This document shows positions 13,324 to 63,855 of a stretch of DNA of 64,000 nt, in pieces. Each line of letters starts with the position of its first letter. Position 1 is the first letter of the stretch. The DNA lies in the NCBI GenBank assembly GCA_030272155.1, contig CP126194.1, forward strand, positions 1,240,001 through 1,304,000. Reading direction: 5' to 3'. The translations under genes and the position numbers were made by a program. This DNA comes from Tetradesmus obliquus (taxonomy: Eukaryota > Chlorophyta > Chlorophyceae > Sphaeropleales > Scenedesmaceae). The notes below the pieces were generated by a model. The model was not told where the DNA came from. It searched no databases and saw nothing but the letters and a program-made list of their open reading frames with translations.

Positions 13324-16300
13324 ATGGGCAAGCAGGACGCCGACGGAGGGGCGAAACTGACGCCCAGCAGGTGCGATCTATACTGATCAGAACGTGTTAT
13401 GTACGGTTGGACGGGCAATGCCGTCGAAATCTTACACCTGCCCGTTGATCAGCTGTACAGCATTCAAAAGCAGGCATACCTGACGGGGCAGCAGTTCTGC
13501 CCATCCTACCTATGCTGCTCATCCTGTTGCACTGCTTACAGGCGAAGGAGAACCAAAGCAGCTGCAGAAGATGAGAATGGCAATGCACAGCAGGACGATG
13601 GTGCAGCAGCTAGCAACCCCAAGCCAGCTGCCAAGCGCAGCAGGACAACCAAGTGAGCACAGAGCCCTGCATGATCAGCCTTGCATAGACACAAGCAGCA
13701 TTGTAAGACGACACTCATATCTATGACTGCAACAACGTTAGTACGATGACCAAGTCGTGCAGTCTGCTTGCCTGTGAGTCCTGAAGTCCTGCAAGGTACT
13801 GCAATGTCGTACATGGACAGGGGCATGCTGGTTGTGCCTGCAGGTCAAAGAAGGATGCAGCAGCAGCTGAAGCAGATGCGCAGCCAGCAAGTGAAGGAGC
13901 AGCAGCAGCAGCAAACGGTGAAGCAGCTGCTAATGGGGATGCAGCAGCAGCAGAGAAGCCAAAACCCAAACGGAAGCCAAAGGAGCCCAAGCCGCCACCA
14001 GGTCTGCATATACGACCGTATATTCCTCATTCCAATGGTCATGCACAATGCGCAGAGCCTGTGTTTGTGGCTGTTGTGATCTGTCTTTCCTGTGTAGTGC
14101 CAGCCGGCCAGACTTCGCGGGATGCCCTGAGCGCTGCTGAATAGGCCGAGTGCAGTTTGAAGCAGCTTGTAGGAATGCTGTTAGTGCTTGTTGAGGCCGC
14201 ACGTCACCTCCGCTGTAGTACCAGTGGCGCAGGTGCAAGTGCGCCAATGTCTGCATATAGCAGCTGGGACCAAGAGCGTGCCTTGTGTGTGTGCAGGCCC
14301 ACTGTACGACGTGAGCATGCGGCCGCCCCGCTTTGAGGGCCCAGCGCACCGCTTCCTGTCATGGAACGTGGCAGGCTTCAGGGCACTCATCAAGAAGGTG
14401 CGGCGCTGCTGCAGCAGTGGCCATTGCAATGATACTAGCAGCTGCTGTCACTTTGCCTGGATTGTACGGGAAAGCGAGGGTTGGCCATCAGCGTGTGGCA
14501 GGACGCAATTGATTGCACGCTGCAGGCGCCGTGGGCACGCCTTGCCTTGTGCACACCCCGTGTCTGGTTGTTAGGTGCTGCCTGTCTTCATTCCAGCAAC
14601 CCAAGTGACTGCCTTTTACCAGTGCCTGGCGAACTGCCTGCCTGCCTACCTGCCCTGCCCGCTTGGCTGCTTGCAGGACGCTGAGGCGCTGAAGAAGCTG
14701 GTAGCGCTGGAGCAGCTGGACGCTGTCTGCTTGCAGGAAACTAAGCTACAGGTAAGCACTCAGCATGCGGCCGCTGCAGCAGAGGTGGGTGCCAGCAGGT
14801 TCACAGCTGCGTGTGGATTGCTTGCAGCGTTGTGACATGCAAAGCAGCAGCTGTTGGGCAAGACATATATGTCGCATAGCTGTAGCCTCCCTGTTGGTAA
14901 ATCGTGTGGTGGTGCTGTGTGGTGTGTCGCGCAGGAGCGTGATGTGGAGAAGATTGTGCAGGAGGCTGGGCTCACTGACTGGCATGTGACGTTCAACTGC
15001 TCAACAGCAAAGAAGGGCTACTCAGGCACAGCAACACTCTGCAGGTGGGACACAGCAGCAGCTGAAGCAATAGCTGTTTGAGCCACAGGCATGCTTGGTG
15101 ATTAGAGCCACTGCCGCTGGTGATGCCAAGCCAGCACCCTGCAACTCAAGTTGCGCTGCTTCTTTGGCTGCAAGCGTGCATGCAAGTAACCTTATGAGGC
15201 AGCACTTCGCCCTGCATGATGCAACTGCCAGTCAGCACTGCTGCTGCTGTGCTTGCTGCTGCTGCCGCCGCGCCTCTGCTGCTGCTATGGCCTCTGCTGC
15301 TGCTGCCCCTGCTGTGCCTGCTGCTGCAGGGAGAAGCCGCTGAGCATCCGTGTGGGCATGGGTGTGGAGGCACACGACGATGAGGGGCGCGTGGTGGCAG
15401 TGGTGAGTGTTGCAGTAAGCAGCAGATACTAATGTTAGTCACTCCATGGTACACTGGGGCTCACAGTCGTGACACTGCCGAGTGCTGCTGCTGCCACAAG
15501 AAGTTGACAAAGCAATAGTTGCATTGCTGATGCTGTGTATGCCCGCATAGCAGGTTCCCTGCAGGCGGGTGTGCCAGGTGGTATGTCAGCTGTTGGGTCC
15601 TGTCTGCCTGCAAGAACGTGCCTGCCTGGTGCTGCGTCACTTAGGTGTGTCTCACCCTCCCTGCTGTTGTAACGCTGCCAATCGCCGCACCCTGCAGGAG
15701 CTGTCTGACCTGTGGCTGGTCAACGTGTACGTGCCCAACAGCGGGGACGGGTGAGTGGTCAGAGTTGCAGTTGCGTTAGGCTCACATGTCATCATCACAT
15801 GCCCTGCATGCAGGCTAGCGGTGACCGAGCTCAGCTTTCATGTCAAGCCCAGCTGCCCAGCACAGAACGCTTGCGGGTGTCTCCAGGCTACCAAAAACCG
15901 CTGCTGACAACAAGGTTTGCTGCATGTTGTCCTGCACCTGCTGCAGGCTGAAGCGACTGGACTACCGAGTGGGAGAGTGGGACAAGGCCTTTGCACACTT
16001 CCTCAAGGTGTGAAACGCAGCCAGCAGCATGGCTGGGCCCACACCCCGTTAGTGGCCATCACCTCTCTTGCAGCGCAAGAGTTTTGTGTCAGTCTCCTGC
16101 CGCAGCCATCCTGATGCTTTCCACTACTAAACTGACAACACCACTCAACCAAATAACTGCTTGGGAGTTGGTTAAGGACATCAACAACAATTTACGGGTC
16201 CATCCTTGCTCATCATGAACCTCATGTGAACTTCCATGCGTGCAGGAGCTGCAGCAGGGCCCTGGCGGCAAGCCTGTGGTGCTCACCGGCGACCTCAACT

Positions 16301-17849
16301 GGCATCTCGGACTGCGCAAGCGTAACCTGTATCGCTGTTCTGCATCTCCTGTTAACCTATACGAACCTCCTGTCAATCGCTGTGACCCCCCTGTATCCGC
16401 CTGTAGGAGCTGCAGCAAGGGCCGGGCGGCAAGCCTGTGGTGCCCACCGACGACCCCACATGACATACCCGACCGTACAAGCATGAACTTCATTGCTCTG
16501 CTCCCAACCTTCTGTATCTGTTTGCAGGAGCTGCAGCAGGGCCCCGGCGGCAAGCCTGTGGTGCTCACCGGCGACCTCCACTGTGCGCACTGCGTCAAAA
16601 CCCACCCTCATCCTGTTGAACCCGCCTGCAACACTCCATGCTTGCAGGAGCTGCAGCAGGGCCCAGGCGGCAAGCCCGTGGTGCTCACACGCACGGCGAC
16701 CTCAACAACACATCAAATTCCCGCCCATGCTGCTAAACCTGTTGCACCACCTCCCTTTCTGCTTGTAGGAGCTGCAGCAGGGCCCCGGCGGCAAGCCTGT
16801 GGTGCTCACCGGCGACCTCCACTGTGCGCACTGCGTCGAAACCCACCCTCATCCTGTTGAACCTCCTGCAACACTCCATGCTTGCAGGAGCTGCAGCAGG
16901 GCCCAGGCGGCAAGCCAGTAGTGCTCACAGGGGACCTCAACTGTGCGCACTGCGAGATCGACATCCACAACCCCAAGGGCAACCTGCGCTCAGCAGGCTT
17001 CACACAGGAGGAGCGAGACTCCTTCGGGCAGCAGGTGCTGGGGCACGCGGGGCTGGTGGACAGCTTCCGGCAGCAGCACCCAGGCGTGGTGGGGTACACC
17101 TACTACAGGTGCGCGCATGTAGTGTTTGGGTGAGGGTGCAGCAGCAGCAAAGGCAGTGAGGTTGGTGGCTCGTATACAGCTTCAGGCAGCAGCACCCGGG
17201 CGTGGTGGGTTACACCTACTACAGGTGGGTGCTTTTGTTTGGGTGAGGATGCAGCAGCAGCAGCAGCAGCAGGTGCTGGGCCATGCGGGGCTGGTAGACA
17301 GCTTCAGGCAGCAGCACCCGGGCGTGGTGGGGTACACCTACTACAGGTGAGGCCTAACTTAAGGGGTAGGCATGCTTTACAGTTTTGTTTGGACAAAAAA
17401 GGCAGCAGCAGCAGCATGTGCACTGCCGCTGGTGACTGGTGGACAGCTTGCAGCGGCAGCACCCGGGCGCACCTACCACAGGTGCGGCAGCGATATCAAT
17501 GCACACACACAACCGCTTCTGTCACAAGCTTGATCATCGACTCCTGGCTCAGATGCATTGCTGCTGCATCTGCTGCTGCTGCAGCTACCGGTTCAACGCG
17601 CGGGCCAGCAACAGGGGCTGGCGGCTGGACTACTTCCTGGTGAGCCTGCCAGGGGGACGCCAGGCGAGGACAGCAGCAGTGACAGAACATGCCTGGGGCT
17701 GTTGCAATTTATCCTTCCCAGCACCTTTGCTGTTGAGATGAAGCATGATGTATGCCGCAATAGCTTCACTGCTGCACCTGCTTGTCTCCTGGTACGGCAG
17801 AGTTCAGATAGGGTGGTGTAACCTGCTGCTGCTTGCTTGCTTGTCTGTG

Positions 17850-17882
<33 letters not shown>

Positions 17883-20958: not shown

Positions 20959-20959
20959 A

Positions 20960-21007
<48 letters not shown>

Positions 21008-35180: not shown

Positions 35181-35372
35181 GGCTCACACCTGCAGGCGCG
35201 TCTGCACCACGTACACGGTGTTCTCGGGGTCCACCACTACCTCAGCACCCCAGCAGCAGCAGCAGCTGCACAGCGGGCTTGTGGCAAAACGCCGAGATAC
35301 GCCATATTAAGCTTACACCTGGGGGCGCGTCTGCACCACGTACACGTTGCCCTCAGGACTTCACAGCACTTC
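35181..35372 (-). repeat. Two decayed copies of the last GWD exon end, beyond the stop
   Basis: The segment coding VYVVQTRPQ plus the following GTGTAAG/GTGTGAG recurs at about 35185-35235 (VYVVQTRLQ) and 35318-35360, roughly 120 bp apart. The true terminal exon is 35437-35562. The copies lack the upstream half of the exon. Confidence 0.88.
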
Positions 35373-35436: not shown

Positions 35437-35564
35437 TTACACCTGGGGGCGCGTCTGCACCACGTACACGTTGCCCTCTGGGTCCACCACTCCCTCAATG
35501 TCCTGCGCACTGCCCAGCGCAGCCTCAATGGCGGCACCCACCTTGCAGATGTCGCTCATCACCT

Positions 35565-35596: not shown

Positions 35597-38500
35597 GTGG
35601 GGGCAGACGTCAGTTAGGTGGCAGCTTGTGTGCATTGCAAAGTGCTGGGATGCCTAGCCTCCGCACGTCCTCTATCATGCCCTGCTCTTGAGCGCAATGC
35701 AGTGCCGCTTCCAGTAACATGTTGAATGACATGACAAGCCTCACCCTGCGCCTGTATTTGCGGTGCTTTGGTGATAGGACCATGGAGGCATCCCCAGAGA
35801 CATCTTACAACCCAACACAAAACACGCCGTACACACTGTCACATACCATGTTACGTAACATGTTGCATCCCTCACCTTGCGCCTGAAGTTGGGGTTCTTG
35901 GTGATGGGGTCCCCGATGCATCCCAGCAACGTCCTCGACCACCAGAGCCGCAGTGCAACACGCCACACAACATGTCACCGAAGATGTTACCTCCCATGTT
36001 ACATAACATGTTACACCTCCCACATTGAGCCTGAAGTTGGGGTCGTTGGTGATGGGGTCGTCGCTGCATCGCAGTTACACCCCTGACCAACAAAGCAAAG
36101 AACATGACAACCGACACAACCTGTCACTCAAGATGTTACCTGCCATGTTACATAACATGTTACACCTCTCACCTTGCGCCTGAAGTTAGGATCCTTGGTG
36201 ATGGGGTCGTCGTTGTAGTCAACGCGCACCAGCTGCGTCTCGTCCATGGTGATGGACTCGTACAGGCCCGCACCCGCATAGCCCTCCAGGTCCTCGCCGT
36301 TGCTGTCAGACCTGCAAGGGGACAAATGCAAAACAAAGGTTGAAGCTTGCAAAACATGCTTTTGCTTTGTGTGCGTGTGATTGTAGCCCTCCTCAGCATC
36401 TCTGTCAGACCTTGCACGCAGGTGCATGCATGCGTGACAGTGAGGGTTGTGCCGAGGTGAAGCGCGAGGTGATTGTCAGATGGCAAATGCAACGCATGAT
36501 GGCAGCTCGCGCTGCTCGTGGCTGCTGCCAGCAGCAGCATCGTACAAGGAGCAACGCCTGCATGGCGCATGCAGACCAAAGGCCTGCTGCCGCAGCCACA
36601 CAATTTGCTGGCTCCCCCGCCGCACCTGAAGATGAGGCTCTCTCGCACAAACATGCCCTCGCTCTTGCTCGCGTAGCTGAGCGTCTCCGGGTGCTCCAGG
36701 TTGTCCTTGCGCGCCGCAAACGCGATGCTGCTGCCCGGCACCATGCCCGACACCAGGCTCTCGCCCAGGCCCTTCACCAGCTCACAGAACACCTGCCAAC
36801 AACAGCCAGAGGGCGAAAGGCGGTGGCAGAACAGTCGTAAGGGGCCACGCCTGCACAAGACACCAGGCTCTCGCCCAGGTGGCAGAACAGTCGTAAGGGG
36901 CCACGCCTGCACAAGACCAGGCTCTCGCCCAGGCCCTTCACCAGCTCGCAGAACACCTGCAGGCACGGAGACAGGCGGCAGCGCAGCAGTTGTGAGGGGC
37001 TACACTTGCACAAGACACCAGGCTCTCACCCAGGCCCTTGACCAGCTCACAGAACACCTGCAGGCAGTGATAGAGGTGGGATCGGAGGTGTAGTGGCGCG
37101 GCAGGAGAGGGTTTGTCAAATTGCGCCAAGAGAGAGCAACAGCGCTAGGCGGGGACAGGCAGCAGCAGGCCAAACACTTACAGGAGACCTGGCATGGCAG
37201 TTTAGCATAACAACAGCAGGAGACGCATAATCGACTGCTGCAGCTGCCTCCATCCTGTGCAGCAGCATCCTCGCGCCGCACCTCGTTGGCGTCGTTGTTG
37301 CTGGGGTTCTTGGTGTGGATCACAAACGCGTAGCGCGCAGGCACCACGCGCATCACGCACACCGCCATGCGCACATCGTCCGCATCAATGCCGCACTTGC
37401 GCAGGCTGTAGAAGGCCCTGTCATTGTACTTGCTGGCCCACACGCCCCTCAGCGCCTCAACGGCCATGCTCCAGCGCTGCTCGTTCTCGGGCACTGGGAT
37501 GCCGCTTTCTTTCAGGGCGGCTGCCAGCTGCTGCCGCAGCTCCCCAGGCACCTGCATGCAGGGCAAAAGCAAGGTGTCATACTCTGCTTCAGTTGTTCAG
37601 ATAGGTGTCATAGTCTGCTTCTGTTGTGCAAGGGCGGCAAATCCATACCACAGCCACAGGGACGAGGCACATGATCAGAACGAGACACTGGGCAGGTGAT
37701 ACACAGCACTTCGTACGACTACCTCCATCTGCTTCACATGCTAAAAAAACTCTGACAACTTCCTGTTAACAGCAAGACACAGCATGTACAGCTTGCATGA
37801 TATGTGTCCCGCAAGCGGCACTGTGCACAAATCCTGCTGCCGCCAACGCACCTGGACCTGCATCGCCAGCTCCCTGCAGCGCGCCAGCAGCGCCTGCGGG
37901 CCCTCAGGCTGGTGACCGTTGCCGCTGCGCCCGTTGCCGGCTGCGCCAGGCAGCTGCATGGGCGCCGGCACGTTGCGCGGCAGCTGCTTGAGCTGCTGCA
38001 CCAGGCCGCGCAGCTGGTCGCGCACGCCGTGGTTCTCCTGAAGCTCCAGCGCCTGCATCAAAAGGGCGAATTCCATGGCATATGTGGCAGGCAAAGACAG
38101 TATTCAGCGTTGGGATGAGAGCAAATCGTGTGCCAGCAGACCTCATCCCGGCCGCAACACCAACCCGACAGCTCGACAGCGTGTCTTTCGCAATTATTGA
38201 AACACGCAGGGGCCTGCTACTGCCGCAGATTGCCGCACCTGCTCGAAGCTGCTGAAGGGCACCGTGACTGCAGCCGGCAGCCTGATCCAGTCTGGTATCT
38301 TGCCGCGCAGGTTGGCGATGTTCTTGGACTTGGCGCCGACCACGCCGTCCTTAAATTCGTTCATGGGCAGCACCCACTTGCCGCACCAGCTGGGGATGTC
38401 AATGGTCAGGTTGAGCACCTGCAGAGGAAGCAGTGCAGCACAGCACAGCACAGCGCAGAAAATGTGAGGCAAGATGGAGGCAGAACTGTCGGCGGCTCAT

Positions 38501-43623: not shown

Positions 43624-44717
43624 GAGCATGCAGGCAATGCTGCAGACGTCAACAAGATGCTGACCAATGATCAGGTATCATGCACTTTCCGCAATGCTCG
43701 TTGAGCCCCGGCTATCCACACAGCAACAGAAGGCACTGCGTGCATGATGCGCCGCCCTCTTAAGGCATGCAGCAGCTGCAGCACCTAGTACTACAGACGC
43801 GGCTGCACCGCGTTTCCTCTCGCACCCATGCATGAAGTGCAGCATCTCGCCGCACATGTGCTGGCCGCCATGACACACTGACCAACAGTATCCAATCCTG
43901 CACTTCCTGCATTTTCACTTCTCCGCCACGCACCTGTACATAATGTGCAGAATCTCATCGCGGATGCGCTGGCCATCTGCCCCGAAGCAGTTTTTGTACA
44001 AAGCACTGCGACTAAGGGTTATGTTGCATCCCGCACCTGTGCATGATGTGCAGGATCTCATCGCGGATGCGCTGGCCGTCGCCGCCGCGCCCCACGCATG
44101 ACAGCATGAGCCGCACCCACTCCTGCGCTTCCCCGGTGGTCTTGGAGTGCGCCTTGGCGATGGTGTGCGTCAGCCGCTCCTGCGCATGTGGAGGATGGTT
44201 TGTTTGGCAGAGGAAAAATGTGTGTCGCATTTGCATTTGCATTTGCAATGGTTGATGGACAGGGAATGTGGAGCGCAGCGGGGAGGGGCGGAGCAGTGCA
44301 GTGGCAGCAGGGGCTGCGCAGGGCACAATACGCTAGGCGGCGACTTGCATCTGGTGTCAACAGAGAGATGCAGTTGCAGACATCCGGCTGCTGACAGCAG
44401 GGAGATGTTGTTAATCGCTGATGCACTTGCAGGCGCATTGTTTGCATCGCATTGGAGGCAGCAGTGGTGGAGCACAGCACCAGCACCCAACTGAATGCAG
44501 CAGCCGCGATGCAACCGCCGCAGCTGTCGCAGCCGCCAAACACAAAAAGTAACATCTAGAAGTAACACAGTAGCTCGCACCTGTGCTGCCGACAGGATGC
44601 GTGGCTGCGTGTTGTAGTTGCGCTGCCAGGTCAGCTGGCGGCTGGCTGAGTAGCGCAGCCACACGTAGATGTCGCCCATGGCCTCAGCAGTGTCCACCTC
44701 AAAGAAGCCATCAACCA

Positions 44718-44762: not shown

Positions 44763-47700
44763 GTCACACACCCTGCTGCACAGCACGTGGCAAAAAGTGG
44801 ACAATGCCCCATACCCGGCTCGAACGGATGACCTTGGCGTTATTAGCACCACGCTCTAACCAACTGAGCTAATAGGGCTGCACTCCACTGCAGCTGTTGA
44901 TGCCAGCTCTGCAGCGCTCGCTCTTCACCGGCCAGCGGCGGCCGTCGCTGCTGCTCTCGCGGCGCCTCGTCCTAAACCTCGTCCTAAACCCTAAACCCTG
45001 ACTCGCTCTAGGGCGATAGCTTGCCCACCCCTGTAACAGACCTCTCCGGCGCCTGCAGGTTTCCCTGCCACGGCACTGCAGTCGAGGCTGTGCCTGCCCC
45101 TACCATATGCTGTTCTGTCTACACTACTGGTGCGAATGGCAAGCCACTTGCTGAATGCGCGGGCGATAGCTTGCCCACCCCTGTAACAGACCTCTCTCCC
45201 GAATGCAGCAGACTGCACTGCCTGGCTGCCTGATGCACATCAACATGACGGTCGCGCTGCATCAGCTGCAACCTTGAGGCTCGTCTCTATCCAACCCCCG
45301 ACCACGCAGCCCCCGCACGACAGCATAACATGGGCACGATACACCCACAACAGCAGCAGCAGCAGCAGCAGCAGCGCACCTCGTTGATGATGTCTGCCGC
45401 CTTGTGGTAGCGGTGCATGAGCGTCCAGTGGTAGGTGTTGACCTCATTGTCGGCGATGGTGCGCTGCAGGTCGTTGCGGAAGCTGCAAGGCGGGACAGCA
45501 GCAGCAGCAGCAGCAGCAGCAGGGCGAGTCAGGCGTCAGGTGCATGTTGCAGTGGAAGGTGCGCTGCAGGTCGTTGCGGAAGCTGCAGGGCGCGGCAGCA
45601 GCAGCAGCGGCAGCAGCAGCAGCAGCAGCAGCAGGGCGTCAAGTACATATGCGAGTGCATATCAGTAAGGCGTCGCGCGCGGCGCATATTGTTGTAAGAG
45701 TTGATAACAGTCCAGGCCAGGGTAGCAGCTTGGGATGATGTGGGTGTTGCTCCAGTTGGCACAACACCTTGGCCACACCACTGCAGCAGCCACCCTCAGC
45801 AGTGCAGCCACACCACTGCAGCAGCCACCCTCAGCAGGGTGCAAAACAGCTGCATGAGCAGCTGCTGCCATAGTCTTCATGGCTGTGATACTGCAACCAC
45901 CCAGGATCGAACTGGGGACCTTGTGCGTGTGAGGCACACGTGATAACCGACTACACCATGGTTGCTGACAAGATATGACAGCAGCAGGAAATGCCATCTG
46001 TTATCACGCAACAACGCGATTTCGGCTGCGCTGCGGCGCCGCGCCGCTGCACGGATCGCTGCCACAATCCGGTTCCAGGCGCCAGGCAGCCTGCCATCTT
46101 GCTGGCACACCCTGCATGCGGGAAGAGTCCTGTGGCCACTCCTGGCACGTTTCCAACAACTGCAGGCCAGAATCCGCTGCGGCTGCTGGCTAGCAGCACG
46201 CAGTGCTTCGCCATATGCGCTGCCATGCGTCTGGTGGCTTTTACAGCTGCGCGGGCCTCACCACACAAGCACGAATAGGCAACGCCACATACGTAATGGT
46301 GCAATAGCAGCCGTCAGCAGCACAAGGATGCACAATGCGTATGATCAATGCAACAGCCGGTGCTGGTCACCGCCAGTGGACAGCAGCGCAAGTTGCCCTC
46401 TAAAGAATGTAATGAGTGCTCCTTGGACCCACCCAGCTCAAGCTGCTGAGACACCCCTGTAACAGACCTCTTTTTTTTTGCTGAGAAACAGGAGAAGCAC
46501 AATACACAAAAACAATGCATTGTATCAAATCACCTGCTGCGCAGGCTACAACAGTAGCATACATGCAACCACCCAGGATTGAACTGGGGACCTTGTGCGT
46601 GTGAGGCACACGTGATAACCGACTACACCATGGTTGCTTGTCAGTTGTTGGTGCAGCAAGCTGGAGCCGCAGTGCAAGACCGACAGCAAGCTGGTTTCGA
46701 CAGCGCTGCGGTGCGCATCGGACACGCAAACGCCGATGGAGCCGTCGCAGGCGTTCCCTCAGCAATCCCTCCCTCCCCCGCCGCTGCGCCGCATGATTGC
46801 TGGTCTTCAAGCGCTAGGCAAAGTTTGTGATGTGAAGGCGTTGGCGCCTGCGGCGCCTGCCCCTGCACTGCCGCCGCCACATCCTCAACAACTGTCAGAC
46901 GTGCACCAGCTGCGTGCACAGCTACAGGCTGTGCAGGATGCGCCGGTGCTGCAGCCCGGGGCTTGGTGTAGTTTGGCTCCTGTCTTTGCTAACCCTTTTT
47001 TGCAAGCAATGGTTGGGTTTGTGCCCGGTGGGCTGCAAATGCATCCCGTGCCCTCTGTGCACGGGCCACATGCATGTTCTGGCGGCAAGTGTCGGCCGCG
47101 CATCCGCACTGTGGCCGATCTCTGTCGCGCTTGGCATGTGATCCAGCATGCTGCACGGCAGCAGCTGCCACACCCATTGCTGCCGTACGGCTCCAACTTC
47201 AGCAATGCAGACAACGAATCGGCAGATTTGACAGACTTGGTTAACTTGCTGCCCGTGCCGTGGCATCGGGCTGCCTTGGCTGTTGTGCGGCATCCTGCAG
47301 CAGACCGGCCCTGGCCGCCTGCGGCTGTGCCAGACCCGCCATGTATGCCTTCTGCAGCAGAGCAGCATGTTGAGGCCATGTTGGTGGCGCGGCTAGGCTG
47401 GCGGAATCATCGCGGCAAGACGGTGTCTGTTGCGCAATTGTCTGTTCGTGAAGCTACCTCGTTGCAGCTTGGTCCCCTGCGTGCTGAGCGCCAGGAGCGG
47501 CGCACTAGGTTTGTCAGTGTTGCGATCGGTGCGGGTGCCCCGCCCGCGGCGTTGACTCGTGGTTTGCAATGTGTGGCAGCCGCCCAGGGCGCACTATGGA
47601 AGATGCGCTGGGATAATGCGTACAAGGAGACGTAGTGGCGGCTGATCGTGGATGGCTTGCCTACGTCGCAGCGCATGCACCAGCAGCATGATACCTGCAT

Positions 47701-50700
47701 GTGTGGCGCTGCGTGCCCTGGTCTGGTGCACCATTTTTGGGAGTGCCCAGTTGCGGTGGCGGTGATTGACAGCCTGCTGTCTGCGTTGCCTGCAACATGG
47801 TGTACGCGGGCTGCAGGCCGCCCGCCGCTTGCTATGCGGCATGTCTGGTTGATGCAGCGGCCTCCCGGCCCTAAGCGGCTCCACCAGGGTGTTTGGGGGG
47901 TTATTTGTTTAGCTGCTCTGAATGCCATGGATGTTGGCCGACGGCAGGCTAACACGCTGCACATTCGGCCGCCCGCGCCTGCTGCGCCGCGGCCGTCTGC
48001 GCCGCCGCCGCAATGGCAGGTACCTATTACAGATGTGTTTCAGCCTGCAGCTCTCACTGCTGCGCAGCAACAGCATAACCAGCTGGTTGAGCAGCGTAGG
48101 CAGCAGCATCAGCTGCAACAACAACAACAGCGACAGCAACTACTAGCGCAGGTGTTACAGGAGGCGAAGCAGCAGGCAGTTTTGCGGTTTTGGGAATTGC
48201 TTGCTGATTTTGTGGCAATGGAGGCTGCGCCGGCTCATTGGCGTGTTGCGGTGCCTGGAGATCACCCGTTCTTGCGATCTGATCCAGCACAGCTGCGCAT
48301 TGTACTGGCGCCCCGCTCTGGTTGACCTTCCTGCTTTTACATGATGTGCTGTCAGTAGTTGTCCAATTTCCACTTTCTGGCAAGGCCATGTTGCATGTCG
48401 TGTGTCACTGTGCTTGATTTTCCAGCTCTGTGTGTCGCATGCGTGCTTCTGTGCTTGTCAGCCATGAGGATTGCAGAAGCAGTAGCACCTTAGTTTGCAT
48501 GTCACATGCAGTGTCTCCTGTCGGTCCCGCGTGCTCCTGCTTGCTGCAGTCTGGTGTGTACAGCAGTGCCTTGGTGCAATCATGCCAAACACCTATGGTA
48601 AGCAGCACCATTGTGCATCCCGCTTGCTGTTTGGACCATGCCTGCCTTCCCTTGTGCGTTTTGTGCCCTGTGCTTTGAGCACCCTGCTGCTTTTCGTGCT
48701 GCACTTCGCACATGCTGCACTGCATGTACTTGTTGGTTTATGGGGAGGTAGGGGCTGCAAGATGCCTCTGGAGTTTTACTTTGGTTGCATCTTGTGGCTT
48801 GCTATCGGGTTCTCATGATATGTGAGCTGAAAGAGGGGCAAGTGACTCGCTCTAGGGCGACAGCTTGCCCACCCCTGTAACAGACCTCTCTCTCTGCGCA
48901 TCGTAGTAGTTGTCCAATTTCCACTTTCTGGCAAGGCCATGTTGCATGTCGTGTGTCACTGTGCTTGATTTTCCAGCTCTGTGTGTCGCATGCGTGCTTC
49001 TGTGCTTGTCAGCCATGAGGATTGCAGAAGCAGTAGCACCTTAGTTTGCATGTCACATGCAGTGTCTCCTGTCGGTCCCGCGTGCTCCTGCTTGCTGCAG
49101 TCTGGTGTGTACAGCAGTGCCTTGGTGCAATCATGCCAAACACCTATGGTAAGCAGCACCATTGTGCATCCCGCTTGCTGTTTGGACCATGCCTGCCTTC
49201 CCTTGTGCGTTTTGTGCCCTGTGCTTTGAGCACCCTGCTGCTTTTCGTGCTGCACTTCGCACATGCTGCACTGCATGTACTTGTTGGTTTATGGGGAGGT
49301 AGGGGCTGCAAGATGCCTCTGGAGTTTTACTTTGGTTGCATCTTGTGGCTTGCTATCGGGTTCTCATGATATGTGAGCTGAAAGAGGGGCAAGTGACTCG
49401 CTCTAGGGCGACAGCTTGCCCACCCCTGTAACAGACCTCTCTCTCTGCGCATCGTAGTAGTTGTCCAATTTCCACTTTCTGGCAAGGCCATGTTGCATGT
49501 CGTGTGTCACTGTGCTTGATTTTCCAGCTCTGTGTGTCGCATGCGTGCTTCTGTGCTTGTCAGCCATGAGGATTGCAGAAGCAGTAGCACCTTAGTTTGC
49601 ATGTCACATGCAGTGTCTCCTGTCGGTCCCGCGTGCTCCTGCTTGCTGCAGTCTGGTGTGTACAGCAGTGCCTTGGTGCAATCATGCCAAACACCTATGG
49701 TAAGCAGCACCATTGTGCATCCCGCTTGCTGTTTGGACCATGCCTGCCTTCCCTTGTGCGTTTTGTGCCCTGTGCTTTGAGCACCCTGCTGCTTTTCGTG
49801 CTGCACTTCGCACATGCTGCACTGCATGTACTTGTTGGTTTATGGGGAGGTAGGGGCTGCAAGATGCCTCTGGAGTTTTACTTTGGTTGCATCTTGTGGC
49901 TTGCTATCGGGTTCTCATGATATGTGAGCTGAAAGAGGGGCAAGTGACTCGCTCTAGGGCGACAGCTTGCCCACCCCTGTAACAGACCTCTCTCTCTGCG
50001 CATCGTAGTAGTTGTCCAATTTCCACTTTCTGGCAAGGCCATGTTGCATGTCGTGTGTCACTGTGCTTGATTTTCCAGCTCTGTGTGTCGCATGCGTGCT
50101 TCTGTGCTTGTCAGCCATGAGGATTGCAGAAGCAGTAGCACCTTAGTTTGCATGTCACATGCAGTGTCTCCTGTCGGTCCCGCGTGCTCCTGCTTGCTGC
50201 AGTCTGGTGTGTACAGCAGTGCCTTGGTGCAATCATGCCAAACACCTATGGTAAGCAGCACCATTGTGCATCCCGCTTGCTGTTTGGACCATGCCTGCCT
50301 TCCCTTGTGCGTTTTGTGCCCTGTGCTCTGAGCACCCTGCTGCTTTTCGTGCTGCACTTCGCACACGCTGCACTGCATGTACTTGTATCTTTATGGGGAG
50401 GTAGGGGCTGCAAGATGCCTCTGGAGTTTTACTTTGGTTGCATCTTGTGGCTTGCTATCGGGTTCTCATGATATGTGAGCTGAAAGAGGGGCAAGTGACT
50501 CGCTCTAGGGCGATAGCTTGCCCACCCCTGTAACATACCTCTTCTGCGCATCCATGGGGAGGTAGGGGCTGCAAGATGCCTCTGGAGTTTTACTTTGGTT
50601 GCATCTTGTGGCTTGCTATCGGGTTCTCATGATATGTGAGCTGAAAGAGGGGCACGTGACTCGCTCTAGGGCGATAGCTTGCCCACCCCTGTAACAGACC

Positions 50701-52985
50701 TCTCTGCGCATCCACAGCAGTGGATGACTTGCCTCGTTTGGTGCAGCACAGCAGCCGCTTCTGACCCTCATACTTATGCTACTTATGGCAGGCACCATGA
50801 GCGATGACGTCCCCATAAATGTCTGCTTCTGGAGCCAAACTGGAGGATCTGCTCCAGGACCAGCAGTCGCAGTGTGATGTAGCAGCAGCAGGAAGCTGGA
50901 AGTGCAGCCAGTTAGTCAGCTGTGCGTGGAGAAGTGATGAGTGCAGCAGTCTGGCGCTGTCTTTGCAGTGTTGTGTTAGCTACCGACTGGCAGATGCTGG
51001 TTCTGAATTGCCTTTAGAAAATCCTGGGTGCCTGCTTGCTGTCAGTGCTGGAGGTTGCGCTGTTGCAGCAGTTGGGACTTTGGGGGCCCACATTCTACAT
51101 GCCAGCACCAGTAGAAGGCGGTGGGCAGGTGGCGTTGTGGAGTTGACTTTTGTCAGCTTTGATTGCAGGCGTATCCAGCCAACTCCTGTGGGCACCATAG
51201 GTTTATAGCCGTGGTCGTGGGACATTGACCTCAAAGTGGCCGGTGTCGTTGTCTGCTAGGGGGCGGTGTTGTTGTCGTGTCAAGGGACCCTTGACACTGC
51301 ACGCTGTGATGGGACGGGGGTTCTGTGTGCGGGTTGCAGCAGTCCAGGCCTTTTGGCCCCGAGTGTCGCTGGTTGTTGTCGAGTCTATTGAGTTAGGCCT
51401 GGCCAACCTTCGTGTTGCATGTGTGTTGTGTTGCCAGATGTTGTGCAGGTGAGTGTTGTAGGGGCTTCTGCAAGCCTGTCGACCAGCAGCTAACTATGGG
51501 TTGACTCAGGAGGATCACCCTGTTTTTGCGTCAGGCGGCATAAGCACACCTGTATTTATGTTTAGTTTGCTTATGCGGGTGATCGTAGCGTTGTATGCCG
51601 GCAGCTTCTGCATTCCATGTGCTAGCCTGCTTGTAATGCATGCATGCTTGCGTTTACGGTGGCATGTTACCGCGGTGTGGGGAACTGGAGGTTGGACAAA
51701 TACCCACTGGTCCTTATGATACGAGGGCTTACTTGGCGGCGTGTTGGCTTGACTGGCAGTACCTAGCCCCTGCGGGGTTGGGGAGACCGCCTCCGTGTAA
51801 CAAATGCAATGCAAATGCAATGCAATGCGCGCTGCAGCTGCTATGCTGCCAGCAGGCTCAAGCTGACTGCCAGCCGCTGCAGCTCAGCCACTGGCCAGCT
51901 TGCAGCCAGCACGGCACAGCAGGGTGGCTGTAGAGGACACACAGCTGCCGCGCTACTCAACTTTAAGCTGCTGTTTCACCCGTGAAGTCATTTGTAGTGA
52001 ACGCTAGTACCGTTTTTGGTGGAAAAGATAGTTGGGTCGGTTGTGTCTGTCAAAACAAGGCAGTGATCAAATCTCTCACCTGGACATGGGGTCAGCTGCC
52101 TGCAGGTCCTCGCCGCGCTTGGTGGGGATGGGGATGAAAAAGTTGCCGTTGGCGTCACGGTACCAGCGCGTCTGGTCAGCACTGCGGCGCGGCACAGCAG
52201 CAGGCACACAGCACATGACACAAAAAGGGTAAGTAAGCAGCAACCACAGCGCTTGCAGTTGCGTTGTCTGTTAGGCTGAACCAGCAGGTTCAATTTGGGC
52301 TGTCCGGTGCACATGCAGCAAACAGCAGCACTCAACCAAGGCACCTGCAGAGTTGCTGTTGCGCAGCCAGGCCAACTGACAGAAGCCTTGCATCAACTGC
52401 CTTTACACAGGTACACTGTTTCTGACCCTGACACAACTGCTCGCATGCTGTCAAGCACCCCTTTCATGAGCACACACCATCACCCCACCCACCCCACCCA
52501 CTGGCCACAAACAGAAAACTGCACTTTCTCCGCCACCCACACTATCCCCTGCTTCCCGCAAACACCACACACACAAAGTAACACACACATCCTCACCTGC
52601 GCAGCACAAATGTAATACCGCCCACGTCCTGCTGCCCCGCAGGCAGTGTCAGCGCCAGCCGCTGCAGTGGCACCTTGGCCCCCGCAATCTCCACATCACA
52701 CTCCTCCTCGCCCTGGCAGTCCTGGAAGTGCGTCTCGCAGGCAGTGCCGCCCTCCAGCACGATGGTGTGCTCGGGGCGCAGGTCTTCCGGGGCACGGCGC
52801 CAGTCGCGCGAGCCTGCGGCAGCAGCAGCAGCAGCAGCAGCAACAGCAAGGAAAGAGTAACAGAGAATGTATGTGCATGCAAATATGAGTGAGCAGGGGG
52901 CAGGTTTGGAAGCTAAAGTTGCTGCTTGTTGTGCCATCGCAACTGCCCGCATGTGGCCACACCCTCAGCAAGACAGACACGGCAA

Positions 52986-53018: not shown

Positions 53019-54177
53019 CCGCACCTGCTTTGCTGACTCCCCAGTGCAGCACCAGCTGGTTGGCATTGTCAGTGACCAGGCTGATGTGTGTGGGCCCCTC
53101 AAGGCCCTGAGGCTGCTTCACCACAGCAAACAGCTCGCTCTTGCTGCAGGGGGTTGATACAGAGCACGGCACGGCACAGCGGCGGGCAGCAGCACAGCAA
53201 GCTTCAGTGGCAGAGCGCTGTGAAAGGCACTGCTGCACATGCAGGCTTGGCACGTCACAATAATGCCCTGCAGACCGTTCACGCATCGACACATGCACGC
53301 ATACACACGCACATTCCTGTGATGTACCTTGAAAGAGACATGTTAAACACACACAAAGCAACGAGGATTTGGTCCTTGCTCGCACCGCACCTGCCCAGCT
53401 GGTACACGCGGCGCCACTTTGTGGCTGGGTCCACTGCCGCCTGCTGCACCAGGAAGTCCAGCGGCTTCTCCTGTCGGGAGCGCTTGTCCTGGGACAGGTC
53501 GGGCGCCTCGCTCTTCTGCGAGTAAACAAGGTACAAACACCAAGAACAGTGAGAAGACAGCGAAATGGCATGCAGCGGCTTCTCCTGGCGGGAGCGCTTG
53601 TCCTGGGACAGGTCGGGCGCCTCGCTCTTCTGCAAGGAGTAAACAAGGTACAAACACCAAGAACAGTGAGAAGACAGCCAAATGGCATGCAGCGGCTTCT
53701 CCTGCCGGGAGCGCTTGTCCTGGGACAGGTCAGGCGCCTCGCTCTTCTGCAAGGTGGCAATATGGGACAAACACCAAGAACATTGAGAAGACAGCGAAAT
53801 GACATGCAGCGGCGGCTGGCAGGAGCGCTTGTCCTGGGACAGGTCCTGCGCCTCGCTCTTCTGCAGGATTGAGATTATGGTGTTAATTTTCAGTAGAAGG
53901 AATGAGGAGCCAGCAGGAAGACATGCGGCCTAAGCAACACCAGCAGACAGAGGCATGGTGTGCAGCCAGTTTCATTGCGGAAGGTATGTGCCGTTGCAAC
54001 AAGCTGAAGTACACAACATACAATCATATGCTACCAAACGTCTGTTGCTGCTGCTGCTGCACCGACGCACCTTGATGAGGTTGAGGGGGTCGCGCTTGAC
54101 CTCCCCACCGATCATGGACTGGCCCACCTCCACCTTGGGGGCTGGCGGAGGCGAGGGAGCCCTGGGAGCCTCCTTGA

Positions 54178-54209
<32 letters not shown>

Positions 54210-57200
54210 TGGCAGCAGCAGCAGCAGCAGCAGCAAAGGCGTGTACGTGTGTCAGTTCTGTGTATGTGCAGGCAAGACATTGCAGCAGCAGGATGTGAAA
54301 GAGGACCGCCAGCCAGTGATGTGTCACGTGATAAAGCGCAGCTGGGCGTAAGGGTCGGTGTTTTCTCCAGACACAGCGGAACAGCAGCTGCAGCCACCCA
54401 CGCAGCCGCACCCCCACCTTTGCCTGCGCCTGCTGCTGCTGCTGCTGCGCCTGCTCCTGCTTCTGCCGCTGCTCCTTGGCTGCTGCCTGCTTGTTGTACT
54501 CCTTGCCCGGGTTCTTCAGCCGCCACTCAATCTCCTCTAGGGTTTGGCCCTGCCGCAGCTTGGCCTCAATCTCCTTGCGCGCCCCAGCACCAAAGTCGGC
54601 ACCCTGCAGGGACATTCAAAGCAGAAAGAGTGAACTTGCTGCACAACCTCAGCTTGGCCTCAATCTCCTTGCGAGCACCAGCACCTGTTGACGCATTGCA
54701 CTCTCTGTTGATTTTGCAATCTGCAGATGATACTGAAATGTGCAGCAAACGGCAGTGTGTTGCGGATGCGCACGTGCAGATGCCTATTGAAACGCCATCT
54801 GCATTGCAAGACAGCAAGGAAGCATCGGCGCAACCCACCTGCGGCTTGCCGGCCTGCTCCCACATCACGAAGGCCTGCACCGCCACCAGGCTGTCAGGGA
54901 TGATGACCGGGATGTCCGCATCAGGCCCGGCACGTGACTGCACAGGCACCTGCAGGGGGCAAGCACAGGAGACAAGGGAAATTAGGCAGCAAGATGCAAA
55001 GTGGTAGTGAGCATCAGTGTGGTGCCCGAGGAGTGGCATCATGGCTTGTAAGCAACAAGCACGCGCACATGTACACTACAGTTGCAGCAACACTACAGAC
55101 GGCTAGTTGAGTATGGCGCAACCACCTCTAACCCCTCAGGCTGGACCCCACCTGCATGCTGGGGTCCAGCGCCGACAGCCCCAGCATGTGACACCAACAA
55201 CACTACAGCAACAGTCACACCTCGCGTTCAATCCATCATGCCAAAACCATCTCAAATTCTCAGGGCCGCACCTGCATGATGGAGTCCAGCGCTGACAGGC
55301 CCAGCATGGGGTCGATGACCTCCATGCGGTAGTTGCTGTACATCAGCTTGCCGTCAGCCACCGCCTGCAGCTCCGCCAGCGACCTGGTGCGGCAGCAGCA
55401 GCAGCAGCAGCGGTGGCGGCAATGCGGCAGATGGACGCGAGTTACACCTCTGCTGCAGCCGCCTCGTACTCCAGGTTGTGCAATAACCACCAAATAGAGA
55501 GACAAATGGACATGCATTCACAATAACATACATGTTTCACAAACACGCGCCTGCCAGCCGCCAGCAAGCCACTCATCTCAGCCACAGCAGCCTCATACGA
55601 TAATTCATGCAGTAGCCCAGCAAACAGACACAAGTACATGAACATGCACTTGCGCTGTTTAACAACCACGCACCTGCCAGCCGCCAGCAACCCACTCATC
55701 TCAGCCACGGCAGCCTCATACTCCAGGTCATGCAGCAACCCACCTGAATCAACAAAACAGTGTGCATGCACTCGCGATAATGTACATGATACTACGCACC
55801 TGCCAGCCGCCAGCAGCCCACTCATCTCTGCCACAGCCGCCTCATACTCCAGGTCATGCAGTAACCCACCAAGTAGACAATTCATGTACATACACTCGCA
55901 ATAACATACATGTTTAACAACCACGCACCTGCCAGCCGCCAGAAGCCCGCGCATCTCCGCCACAGCCGCCTCATACTCCAGGTCATGCAGCAACCCACCT
56001 GAGTTGACAAAACAATGTTCATGCACTCGCAATAACATACATGTTTCACAAACACGCACCTGCCAGCCGCCAGCAAGCCACTCATCTCAGCCACTGCAGC
56101 CTCATACTACCAAGTCATGCAGCAAGTCATGCAGCAACCAACCAAGAAGACACGATAATGTACACGCACTCGCGACGTTCAACAAACACGCACCTGCCAG
56201 CTGCCAGCAGCCCGCTCATCTCCGCCACAGCCGCCTCATACTCCAGGTCGGCCTGCTCCTCGCTGCGGTGCGGCCTGCCCGCGTGGTCCCATCGGATCCA
56301 CGCCCACGTGTCACACAGCGCCTGCGGCAGCTTCTGGCGCTCGGCTGTCTTGACCACCGCCTGCCCTGCCTCCTCCTTGCCAGAGCGCAGGGGGACTGCA
56401 AAGTTTGACCCCAGGTGGTCGTACCTGCATGCAGCAACAGCAGGCAGTACGGTTAAGGCTTGCATGCAGCTTGACTTGGCCCGGCTTCCCCCCTTGCTGG
56501 AGTGCTGCGTCGCGATAAAGTTGAAGCCTAGGTGGTGGTTGTACCTGCACGTGCGACGGAGTATTATTGATGGAGAGGGGCAACTGGCACTATTACAAGC
56601 ATGTTTCACTGTTGCACGCAGACTGCGTCAACAGGCGTGATCGTTCGTTTCCTTGCGTGTGCGAGGCACACACCCATTCACACGGGCCAGTGCTTCCTTC
56701 AGGCCATTGGGCGATTTGCTGACTGGTTCGTGCTTGTGCTGTACTCATCAAGTACAGCACAAAGAACGAACCAGTCAGGAAGTTCCTAATGACCCGAGGG
56801 TAGCCCATGTGAAAGGAAAACTGCAACAACACAACACGTGGAAGGCTGTGTGCCGCATGCCACTGCAGCCGCCTGCATGGCTGTCGGTTACCCACCATGT
56901 GTTGGTGGCGTCGTCCTTGTTCATGAAGCAAATGACATCAGACACCACACAACGTGCACATGCAGGGCTGCATATCACATGGGCAAAACTGCACCTGCAG
57001 CCGAGGTGCATTATTGTGGGACACCCACCATGTGTTGGTGGCATCATCTTTGAGCACAAAGTTGATGATGTCAGACGCCTCATCGCCATCCAGCCGAATG
57101 CGCAGGGAGCCATTCCTGCAGCCAGCAAGGCGCAGCGGCAGGCAATGGCAACAGCAGCAGAGCAACACAGGCAAAGCAACACAGGCAGCAGAGCATGCGG

Positions 57201-59688: not shown

Positions 59689-62600
59689 TTAGGCGTTGTA
59701 GGGCTCCTCCCGCACATCCAGCAGCTGCTCCACCACCACTGTTGTCATGCTGTACTCCTTCTCCTTGGCTGCCTCGCCATACGTTGCCTCGTAGAAGGCG
59801 CGCAGCTGCGCGGCATACTCCTGGCGTGCTGCTGCTGCAGCATCCCACTCCTCCTGCTGCTTCGCGCGCTCCTGCAGCACGTCCGCATCAGCCTGCAGGC
59901 ACGGAAAAAGGTTGCGCATGGATAGACGTTAGTGAAGTGATACAGCAGCTGCAAGCGCAGCGCGGTGACTGCCGCTTCTGCAGCACGTCCACGTCAGCAT
60001 GCAGGCCGTCGCAGGGCGGTTGCAGAGCACAACCACGCAACGCCAGATGCATTGAAAGACAGACGTAAATTCAGCCGCTTCGCCGGCACAGCATATGCAA
60101 AGGTAGGACACCAAGCACGCTATTACTGCAGTCATAGCATGATGCCGTACGCATCATTGCAACACGCAGCACACAGCGCACGCACCTGCAGCAGCAGCGC
60201 CTCGTCCTCCTCGTCGTAGCGCCTGCTGTACTCCTTGAGCCCCTTGCGGATCTCCTCCTCCTTCTCACGAGGCAGCAGACTCGGCACGCGCGGCCGCCAG
60301 CTCAGCTGGCCAAAGCGGTCGCGAGGCATGCTGCAAAGAACAGATGTACAGTAAAGAGGTGCGGCGGTAGGCGGCAAGTGGAACATCAGCAGTCAGTGGC
60401 GTGCAGCAAGCAAGGAACAGAAGAGCCCACTAGGAGGCTGCCAGCTCAGCTGGCCAAAGCGGTTGTGAGGCATGCTGCAGGGTTGGAATATGGTTGATGC
60501 CAGACGGTGTGGGGGTAGGCGGCAGGCAACAGCAGCAGTCAGAGTCGTGCAGCAACGCCAAGGAGAGAAAGAGCCGACCCATGGAGATGCTGATGACAAG
60601 GCAGTTGCAGGAATCCGCGCTTGCAGGTGCAGCAGGGGCCATAGTAGCTGCAGGAGAAGCATATACGTTACGGGTGCAGCTGTGAAGCCAAAGTGCATGA
60701 TTGCGAGAGCAAGCCTGTCCGATGCATATTGTGTCGCCCAGAACAAGCGCCAGTGCAGATCCTTATTCGGCAACTGCGCGGTTGAATGTTTGGTGTTGCA
60801 GCTGGCTGTGTGCACAGCAGACTCACGTGTAGAGCAGCTTGCCGTTGAAGCTCCACATGTTGAAGCCGTTCTCCATCTGGTGGATGCTGGTCACACTGCT
60901 CGCCACGTAGCGGCCAGTGGGGTCCCACTCCACGTCTGGCGGCAGCAGCAGCAGCAGCAGGAGAAGCAACAGCTTGATGCATGTGTCAGAACAGCGAAGG
61001 ACAGCACCACATTGGAACAGCACAGCTAGAGGACGAGCCGCAACCATGGCCATGAAGCGCTGCACTGCCGACAGCCGTGCAGTTGAATGTTCAAAAACTC
61101 CAGCCCAACACTGGTGCAGCTCAACTGAGCTGTGGCCGTGAGATGCTCCAATGCCGCCAGCGATGACAACACATTTCTCAAAAGACAAACGTATAGGCGG
61201 ATTCAAAGATGAAGCAACTGCACACCCACCTGTGGCCATGAAGTGCTCTGCTGCCGCCAGCACCTGCAACTCGTCCGCACAGCTGAAAACGATGTTCACA
61301 ACACATATCTGCATTCAAACACATTTGACACTGAAGCCGACCCTCACCTGTGGCCATGAAGTGCTCTGCCGCCGCCAGCACCTCGAACTCGTCCACGTTG
61401 AAGAACTCCAGCTGCCCGTTGAGCGCCTTGAGCCCTGACAGCACGATGTTGTGGCCCATGGGGCTCCAGTGGATGCCGTTGCAGGCCTTGTTGGCCAGCG
61501 TGCCTGGAAGAAAACAAGAAACAGCAGAGCAGAAAGACAGTTGGTATGATGTTGTGGCCCATGGGGCTCCAGTGGATGCCGTTGCAGGCCTTGTTGGCCA
61601 GCGTGCCTGCAGGTGAAAGAGAACCAGCACGGCAGGGGTGAGCGAGGAGTATAGTTTGACTTCTGCAGCAAGATAGGCTTGGCGCCGCAAGCTGCACAGA
61701 GCCACAGCTGACAGCAGCAACGGGTAACCGGTGTCAAGCCGGACCCCTCCTTGCCATGCGATGCTCAACATCACTGCAATGGCTGACAATATATCAGGCT
61801 GATGACACATTACCCGACCGCTCACCCAGGTGCTTTACGCCCAGCTTGCCCTTGCCGTCCTTCACCATGTCATGTCACAACATACAAAGGTAACAACTGA
61901 AGACATTTAGCCTCACAAACTCACCCAGGTGCGTCAGGCCCAGCTTGCCCTTGTCGTCCTTCACCATGTCATACAACACGCCATACGGAAATAAATGCTG
62001 AAATGAGGATATGCAACCTCAGCAACTCACCCAGGTGCTTCACGCCCAGCTTGCCCTTGTCGTCCTTCATGCTGTCACACCACAACATACACAGATGAAA
62101 CCGGATAAAAGATGTGCAATCTCAAAAACTCACCCAGGTGCTTAACGCCCAGCTTGCCCTTGCCGTCCTTCACCGCATCAAACTCATGTCACGATGACAT
62201 CAAATGCAACACCATCATCACTCTACACCAACTCACCCAGGTGCTTCACGCCCAGCTTGCCCTTGCCGTCCTTCACCATGATATATCCCAACATCAACTA
62301 CAATCAAATCATATTGAACTGCTGACCATATCAAACCACAATCACCGCTCACCCAGGTGCTTCACGCCCAGCTTGCCCTTGTCGTCCTTCATGCTGTAGA
62401 AGGACACGCTGGGCCGCGCGCTGTCGCCGTGCACCAGCGCAAAGCGGTGGCCCTTGGGCTCCCACGCAAACGACAGCACCTTCTCGCTCTTGTTGGGCAG
62501 CTCCAGCACCTGCAAGTGATGATGCAGCCACAAACATAAATTACGATGCTGTGCCGATGAGATGCAGTGGCGCAGAGGATGTCAAAGCTTGCAGGGGAAG

Positions 62601-63309: not shown

Positions 63310-63342
<33 letters not shown>

Positions 63343-63855
63343 GGTGAGGCTACAACACTACCAGGCCTGCTACAGCTCCTTCCAAGTGTTGAACCCAATA
63401 GCAACACCAGGCAGATATCCCAGAGCAGCTCAACCTGCTACTCCTGCTACTCCCAAAGAAATAGGCGATCACGCCATGCCTGTGCAATCAACCAGCATTA
63501 ATCACCACGTCATGCGGCAGCCGCAGCATCCCCCTCTCACCTGCACGCCCTCCAGCTTGAGGTCCTTCTTGTCCATGAAGTTCAAATCAAGTACAACCGA
63601 GAAAGAAAAACCGCAAAACACATGGGCTCATCCCCCTCACACCTGCACTCCCTCCAGCTTGAGGTCCTGTATCAGTCAAATATCAGACACACCAGCTGCA
63701 GCTCTCGCACTGATAACAGCAGACCATCACGCACCTGCACTCCCTCCAGCTTGAGGTCCTTCTTGTCCAGCTGCGTCATCTCGGGCGTCTCGTAGATCTT
63801 GATGGCGCCCTTGGCCAGCCGCGCAAAGTACTTGTCCTCAAGACCGCCAGCCCAC
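59689..63855 (-). CDS. EIF3B: Translation initiation factor eIF3 subunit b, C-terminal part
   Basis: Core scaffold of the eIF3 complex that loads mRNA on the 40S ribosome. Eight exons join in phase: 63735-63855, 63155-63290, 62770-62900, 62353-62509, 61348-61503, 60827-60935, 60186-60330 and 59689-59892 (TAA). They give 386 residues. The order matches the family's beta-propeller and C-terminal helix: DKYFARLAKGAIKIYETPEM, DFEWSPAEPLLAAYTQE, YLAVKVDRFTKTKKSTYTGF, FAWEPKGHRFALVHGD, GLKALNGQLEFFNVDEFEVL, EWDPTGRYVASSVTS and FNMWSFNGKLLY, then a charged helix (REKEEEIRKGLKEYSRRYDE). The N-terminal RRM and first propeller blades lie beyond the right edge. Several introns hold tandem copies of exon edges. 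Confidence 0.95.
60422..60478 (-). repeat. Copy of an eIF3b exon start (MPHNRFGQLSWQP)
   Basis: The acceptor and first ~45 bp of exon 60186-60330 recur about 145 bp upstream with three residue changes. Confidence 0.85.
61222..61265 (-). repeat. Copy of an eIF3b exon end (EVLAAAEHFMATG)
   Basis: The end and donor of exon 61348-61503 recur about 120 bp further along the transcript, with a good GTGGGT donor. Confidence 0.87.
61547..61610 (-). repeat. Copy of an eIF3b exon start (TLANKACNGIHWSPMGHN)
   Basis: The first ~60 bp of exon 61348-61503 recur with their acceptor about 107 bp upstream, without coding changes. Confidence 0.9.
61822..62280 (-). repeat. Five tandem copies of an eIF3b exon end (KDDKGKLGVKHLG)
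   Basis: After working exon 62353-62509, its last ~40 bp plus donor and intron recur with donors near 62234, 62131, 62029, 61922 and 61823. The period is 99-115 bp. All keep the CTGGGTGAG donor context. Confidence 0.94.
63540..63670 (-). repeat. Two copies of an eIF3b exon end (KDLKLEGVQ)
   Basis: The end and donor of exon 63735-63855 recur at 63648-63668 and 63540-63583, about 90-105 bp apart. Confidence 0.88.

Follow-up and report, generated by a model that had tools for sequence, protein, structure and literature searches.

Introner elements are repeats in introns that carry splice sites, and a single family of them occupies many unrelated introns. Tandem duplication of intron–exon structure has been described for the potato RdRp gene (Ma, Lan and Niu 2016, PMC4974935); in the part of that paper considered here, a head-to-tail duplication including the intron–exon junction (branch site, pyrimidine tract and 3' splice site) gave one gene a new intron and an inserted exon. 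A model reviewed in the section of PMC3443670 used here likewise places tandem duplication beside splice sites and leaves the coding sequence unchanged; in that model exonic sequence is duplicated to form a new intron. Small tandem duplications are also produced in break repair, through fill-in by CST and Pol alpha-primase and end joining, and the portion of PMC8355091 drawn on here presents these local, head-to-tail events as the commonest short (<100 base pairs, bp) insertions in the human genome. Here we describe a stretch of 64 kilobases (kb) from the green alga Tetradesmus obliquus (Chlorophyta, Sphaeropleales, taxid 3088; GenBank assembly GCA_030272155.1, contig CP126194.1, positions 1,240,001 to 1,304,000; hereafter the window), in which short exon edges of the AP endonuclease, GWD and eIF3b genes recur, together with their splice sites, inside the adjoining introns.

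The pattern probably belongs with the small, local tandem duplications, its exon-edge copies having since evolved in an unusual way. It differs from the potato case in the many junctions affected, in that copies stay inside the original intron and in the unchanged sequence of both proteins examined, and from the reviewed model in that existing introns grow. Compared with the repair-derived human insertions the units are long, most of those detected measuring 105–165 bp in a scan that is poor below ~40 bp; break repair with fill-in nevertheless appears to be the closest described route among those compared, as far as the cited part of PMC8355091 goes. In the open-access literature no title or abstract opening describing the pattern was found, most subscription journals lying outside that search.

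The window belongs to a genome of 104,662,953 bases in 17 contigs (104.7 Mb). The exon models of GWD (29 exons), AP endonuclease (10 exons) and the part of eIF3b inside the window (8 exons) each give one open frame. The GWD model aligns without gaps over 1456 of 1456 residues with the T. obliquus protein in UniRef (99.8% identity), and the AP endonuclease model is identical to a T. obliquus protein at 328 of 336 residues (98%), the sole gap falling in a low-complexity stretch. Pfam matches are PF23166, PF22973 and PF01326 for GWD, PF03372 for AP endonuclease and PF08662 for eIF3b, whose model also matches solved eIF3b chains. At the 88 junctions of these models, the 24-bp exon edge was used as a query in the adjoining intron only, with at least 20 of 24 matches required. 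This gave 45 copies (Table 1), distributed over 23 of the 88 junctions: 14 of the 44 donors have at least one, as do 9 of the 44 acceptors. The antisense control of the same search gave 0 of 88. The exon part of the copies is 24–105 bp long and 85–100% identical to its source, with one to five copies per junction. GT or AG is retained in 42 of the 45 copies: GT in 27 of 29 at donors, the other two having GC and AT, and AG in 15 of 16 at acceptors, the remaining one having AT. Alignments show sharply bounded exon parts whose differences lie mostly at third codon positions.

These results bear out what an earlier note on this DNA had claimed for the three genes, namely that an exon edge of 20–110 bp with its splice site is repeated in the adjoining intron in at least 20 cases, at exon starts and exon ends alike. 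The period of 100–160 bp given there agrees with the spacing of successive copies in a wider sample (median 124 bp, quartiles 107–151, n = 159). Its range of one to six copies becomes one to five in the three genes and is exceeded at a sampled locus outside the window (L021, ~635–1700), where the largest array found holds 10 copies of a donor edge at a spacing of ~106–113 bp. The claim that no whole exon is copied stands for the three genes, in which the largest copy amounts to 57% of its exon, but is not established for the genome as a whole, as 20 of 159 copies in the wider sample span at least 90% of a predicted, unverified exon.

The wider sample comprises the window and 25 loci of 10 kb (L002–L026, 250 kb), 314 kb together, and its exons beyond the three genes are unverified ab initio predictions. 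Loci L002–L021 were used to train the exon model and L022–L026 were kept out of training; a first self-trained gene model, which drifted into CAG-rich pseudo-exons, was discarded and replaced by a stricter one. Exon edges of 30 bp were sought within 1.5 kb on both sides, low-complexity 30-mers being excluded and short exons skipped (<40 bp, <45 bp or <100 bp, depending on the search). Exon-edge copies are a real feature, present in 16 of the 25 sampled loci. Outside the window 69 of 403 predicted edges have a local copy, against 5 in antisense, so that the pattern is not confined to the window. By source, copies accompany 32 of 150 edges in the window, 62 of 319 in L002–L021 (antisense 4) and 7 of 84 in L022–L026 (antisense 1); the lower figure for the loci kept out of training points either to regional differences in rate or to an effect of exon quality.

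In the window and L002–L021 together, a local copy was found for 54 of 224 donor edges and 40 of 245 acceptor edges, compared with 15 of 185 exon middles and 15 of 222 and 28 of 237 pieces in two intron classes. In the same order of classes, the antisense controls gave 3, 1, 1, 2 and 0 matches, and controls against a random other locus gave 0, 1, 0, 1 and 1. The two-sided search over the window and the 250 kb placed 52 of 59 donor copies downstream and 34 of 42 acceptor copies upstream. Acceptor copies in the wider sample carry AG in 50 of 55 cases. Predicted introns with edge copies have a median length of 361 bp (n = 70) and those without 300 bp (n = 239), the significance of this difference not having been assessed. 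An assembly artefact is unlikely in the extreme, because copies within arrays differ from one another by 7.5% on average; the spread over the sampled loci also speaks against it.

The repeats extend beyond junctions. An offset scan (offsets 15–600, matches of 40 bp required, low-complexity runs dropped, two-copy units below ~40 bp missed) detected 99 clusters of local direct repeats, 66 with a unit of 75–180 bp and 4 with a unit below 75 bp; 22 of the 99 are contiguous, and most of these have diverged or hold more than two copies. In the 314-kb sample, units of 40–75 bp are few among local direct repeats, and the scarcity of units below 75 bp suggests that there may be a size which the process favours or below which it does not go. 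When exons and edge copies were masked, the introns yielded 109 direct high-scoring segment pairs within 1 kb, forming 47 direct-repeat clusters, and 0 inverted ones. Intron repeats that touch no exon have offsets similar to the spacing of edge copies, and this likeness in unit length argues for one process, whose nature we infer from the repeats it has left. Unit size, orientation and intron length support the earlier note's idea of a local duplication habit by which introns become longer and splice sites more numerous.

Whether the habit is aimed at junctions is a different matter. A strong preference seemed present among 28 recent clusters (junction 21, intron only 4, intergenic 3), but it shrank once the intron part alone was considered: of the 47 clusters, 18 lie against an exon edge and 29 stand apart from any, the number at edges expected under random placement being 11.2 (binomial P 0.015–0.019). 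If four stand-alone clusters are misannotated, the count becomes 22 of 46 (P 3e-4). Junction-directed duplication is therefore only weakly supported. The edge-copy pattern is not an element, since direct repeats of ~105–165 bp run all through the introns, none was found inverted and junction cases are 1.6–2 times those of random placement. In contrast to introner elements, the source of each copy is the exon next to it; the single array searched in the 104.7 Mb (53459–53865) had one match among the matches listed and revealed no dispersed family, and this, with the 0–1 matches that each class gave in the random-locus control, argues against membership of the introners.

We consider it probable that these arrays reflect tandem duplication tolerated through splicing and followed by sequence exchange among the exon-edge copies. 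Segments of ~80–180 bp would be duplicated head to tail at many genome sites, as the repeats suggest, and a duplication spanning a junction would leave inside the intron another exon edge that carries a donor or acceptor of its own. Because the GWD and AP endonuclease proteins on record are unchanged, splicing presumably keeps using the edge that is joined to the rest of the exon, and the additional copies would be removed with the intron. Duplications inside introns would likewise be tolerated, and those inside exons would be purged by selection. The copies and the true edge may then exchange sequence, via gene conversion or array contraction and regrowth, so that the exon part would stay alike with mainly synonymous variants and the intron pieces between copies would drift apart. 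Exchange among edges, with selection on whichever is real, can account for the divergence patterns described below.

The different evolution of the exon and intron parts of the copies was not among the points of the earlier note. Over the 159 copies the exon part (median 47 bp) has a mean identity of 92% at donors and 88% at acceptors, and real edge and copy mismatch at codon positions 1, 2 and 3 with frequencies of 0.048, 0.044 and 0.147. Of the intron sequence beside and between the copies, hereafter filler, the 40 bp adjoining the exon part have a mean identity of 0.72–0.73 in gapped alignment, compared with 0.60–0.63 for random introns; a second measurement gave 0.71 versus 0.57, close to what a divergence of 0.3 gives when simulated with an assumed indel rate. 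Within the GWD array at 41319–41961, filler identity is 0.49–0.82 and that of the exon part at least 0.87. In 12 arrays of at least three copies, the identity of the exon part shows no correlation with that of the filler (mean rho 0.03, with −0.28 to 0.69 for single arrays), and copies resemble one another as closely as they resemble the real edge (exon identity 0.925 copy–copy and 0.922 real–copy).

All pairs in the three genes give 36 nonsynonymous and 110 synonymous changes. Such all-pair counts repeat real-edge changes in multi-copy arrays, and for that reason nearest-copy and single-copy counts are also given. The nearest copies at 84 junctions have 217 synonymous and 132 nonsynonymous changes (56/293 and 58/293 in wrong-frame controls), those of the window 63 and 22, and single-copy junctions in the window 34 and 12. 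On a plainer view, tandem duplicates decay neutrally without exchanging sequence, and selection leaves the junction pattern behind; the direct-only orientation and the near-random ratio of junction to intron-only clusters fit this. A neutral copy beside a constrained exon, however, needs a nonsynonymous to synonymous ratio of at least ~1.3, and 0.71 was observed for single copies and 0.35 for those of the window. CpG hypermutability was considered as a cause of the synonymous bias and rejected, as the bias persists without CpG sites (83 nonsynonymous and 108 synonymous in nearest copies, where a both-neutral ratio would be 2.81; context rates from 14 hand-picked arrays). With exon and filler divergence also uncorrelated, plain duplication is improbable and disfavoured.

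In those 14 arrays (L003, L007, L012, L015, L016, L018, L020, L021 and the window), CpG positions mismatch at 0.062 (29/466), compared with 0.024 for other C/G and 0.042 for A/T, hinting at CpG methylation.

The deficit of nonsynonymous changes could also mean that the copies are functional, usable exon edges being kept by selection for alternative splicing or splice-site competition. This would agree with the window's nearest-copy counts, with the intact GT or AG of nearly all copies in the three genes, with donor positions +3 and +5 (0.88, 0.85) being better kept than +4 and +6 (0.62, 0.66), and with 20 indels per 9475 bases in copies against 57 per 4648 in alignable filler. On the other hand, 11 of the 20 indels shift the frame, and changes private to copies (61 nonsynonymous and 2 stops versus 50 synonymous) contrast with those private to the real edge (7 versus 22); the copies are less constrained than the real edge. 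Structurally, a copy is an exon edge with one splice site inside an intron. Inner ends, searched in copies with an exon part below 88 bp, have no splice consensus, so the copies are not cassettes; cassette or mutually exclusive exons were rejected, as the splice site is present at one end only. Offsets are not enriched for multiples of three (26 of 104 donor, 19 of 55 acceptor), on which ground general in-frame retention of copies was also rejected. The published proteins, probably gene predictions themselves, contain no copy, be it from the 15 tested GWD junctions with copies or the 2 of AP endonuclease. Function of the copies is therefore judged unlikely, although partial function might explain much of the divergence patterns.

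Several observations weigh against tandem duplication followed by exchange. The exchange is deduced from divergence within one genome. Junction clusters stand somewhat above random placement, and GT is present in only 77 of 104 donor copies of the wider sample, a figure that also tells against functional copies. Single-copy junctions (n = 48) are also short of nonsynonymous changes (91 versus 128 synonymous), which needs past arrays or selection on copies. The low correlation between exon part and filler may partly reflect short exon parts (29–85 bp) and limited power. Finally, among 27 pairs with at least 96% exon identity over at least 35 bp, 17 have filler at or below the 95th percentile of random introns; they come from 12 junctions, six of them from one L021 junction, and include the eIF3b copy at 61548–61606. 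Near-identical exon parts with unlike filler are awkward for recent plain tandem duplication.

These unlike fillers might be explained by a process in which the exon edge is copied into introns with just a few splice-site bases and no further intron sequence, for instance from RNA or a repair template. Ungapped identity indeed falls sharply at intron position +7, and among donor-side 30-mers 39 of 167 are copied locally at the exon edge and 6 of 167 at 30 bp into the intron. Many arrays, however, are regularly spaced and have filler that can be aligned in part. Seven of those in the window have units of 103–149 bp with 74–91% matches, and a local score finds clear filler likeness in 67 of 159 junction pairs (36% of pairs when judged by the cut-off from random introns). 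That +4 and +6 have diverged in part accords with common descent of the splice site, and exon-free intron repeats have similar unit lengths. We regard edge-only copying as quite unlikely. It is conceivable, if doubtful, that some process puts exon edges and their splice site into adjacent introns and repeatedly overwrites these copies from the true edge. Perhaps a fifth of junctions would then face near-identical competitors ~100 bases away for the spliceosome to reject.

The part of PMC5966456 used here gives a mean intron length of 462 bp for T. obliquus, compared with 230, 302, 284 and 270 bp in four other chlorophytes. If the pattern is genome-wide, as extrapolated from the 314 kb, T. obliquus would be a case of intron growth in progress and would offer many natural tests of spliceosome choice among near-identical donors or acceptors. 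The copies would also be a warning for gene prediction, which in genomes of this kind will yield spurious exons: among those predicted here, 33 are covered to at least half by edge copies.

Table 1. Exon-edge copies in the AP endonuclease, GWD and eIF3b genes (positions in the window)
Gene	Edge copied	Position of copies	Strand	Remarks
AP endonuclease	start of 16888-17108 + acceptor	16246-16301, 16407-16447, 16528-16594, 16648-16689, 16769-16835	+	5 copies; spacing 119-161; all AG; alignment
AP endonuclease	end of 16888-17108 + donor	17176-17224, 17266-17346	+	2 copies; both GT
GWD	end of 35443-35562 + donor (35442)	35190..35354, offsets 124, 253	-	2 copies; after model's last exon, outside the 88 junctions
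GWD	end of 36173-36311 + donor	35876..36063: offset 297 (35876-35911), offset 149	-	24-bp edge search gave offset 297 only; wider search both
GWD	start of 36626-36792 + acceptor	36916-36956, 37014-37057	-	2 copies; AG
GWD	start of 38239-38418 + acceptor	38529-38559	-	AG
GWD	end of 39241-39397 + donor	39138-39175	-	GT
GWD	end of 40250-40434 + donor	40009-40113	-	105 bp; GT; 57% of exon, longest
GWD	end of 42026-42268 + donor	41319-41403, 41467-41551, 41609-41693, 41743-41827, 41877-41961	-	5 copies, 85 bp each; all GT
GWD	start of 42026-42268 + acceptor	42335-42434	-	100 bp; AG
GWD	end of 42830-43010 + donor	42700-42738	-	GT
GWD	end of 43448-43562	43296-43330, 43086-43119	-	2 copies; GT in first, donor lost (AT) in second
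GWD	end of 44037-44179 + donor	43934-43974	-	GT
GWD	start of 45380-45482 + acceptor	45558-45582	-	AG
GWD	start of 53391-53515 + acceptor	53573-53629, 53690-53746, 53822-53860	-	3 copies; spacing 114-117
GWD	end of 55272-55383 + donor	55152-55188	-	GT
GWD	end of 56194-56424 + donor	55551-55598, 55674-55729, 55800-55855, 55929-55984, 56060-56108	-	5 copies; spacing 123-134; GC in first, GT in others
GWD	end of 57029-57115 + donor	56896-56919	-	GT; weakest donor case, 24 bp, 87.5%
eIF3b	start of 59716-59892	59973-59998	-	acceptor lost (AT); weak case, 26 bp, 88.5%
eIF3b	start of 60186-60330 + acceptor	60436-60474	-	AG
eIF3b	end of 61348-61503 + donor	61230-61276	-	GT
eIF3b	start of 61348-61503 + acceptor	61548-61606	-	AG; 59/59 bp identical, adjoining intron 0.70
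eIF3b	end of 62353-62509 + donor	61826-61864, 61925-61963, 62031-62075, 62134-62172, 62237-62275	-	5 copies; spacing 99-116; all GT
eIF3b	end of 63735-63855 + donor	63541-63575, 63643-63668	-	2 copies; GT

The GWD acceptor array at 53391–53860 has spacings of 114, 117 and 114, all multiples of three, and from 53770 onwards the exon's reading frame stays open across two of its three copies. With an open frame and such spacings, use of an upstream acceptor would insert in-frame repeats; these are missing from the published GWD protein.

Other repeats and genes were seen in the sample. The large GWD intron at 45483–52079 holds a tandem array with a 551-bp unit (48354–50552, 99.4% identity), beside which an open reading frame at 46634–47635 has no Pfam match. 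After GWD, a gene on the minus strand at 31189–33044 encodes glutaredoxin and GST N-terminal domains, and the ab initio model fused it with GWD. Satellite-like arrays with units of 274–279 and 345 bp occupy positions 1–4800 of locus L018.

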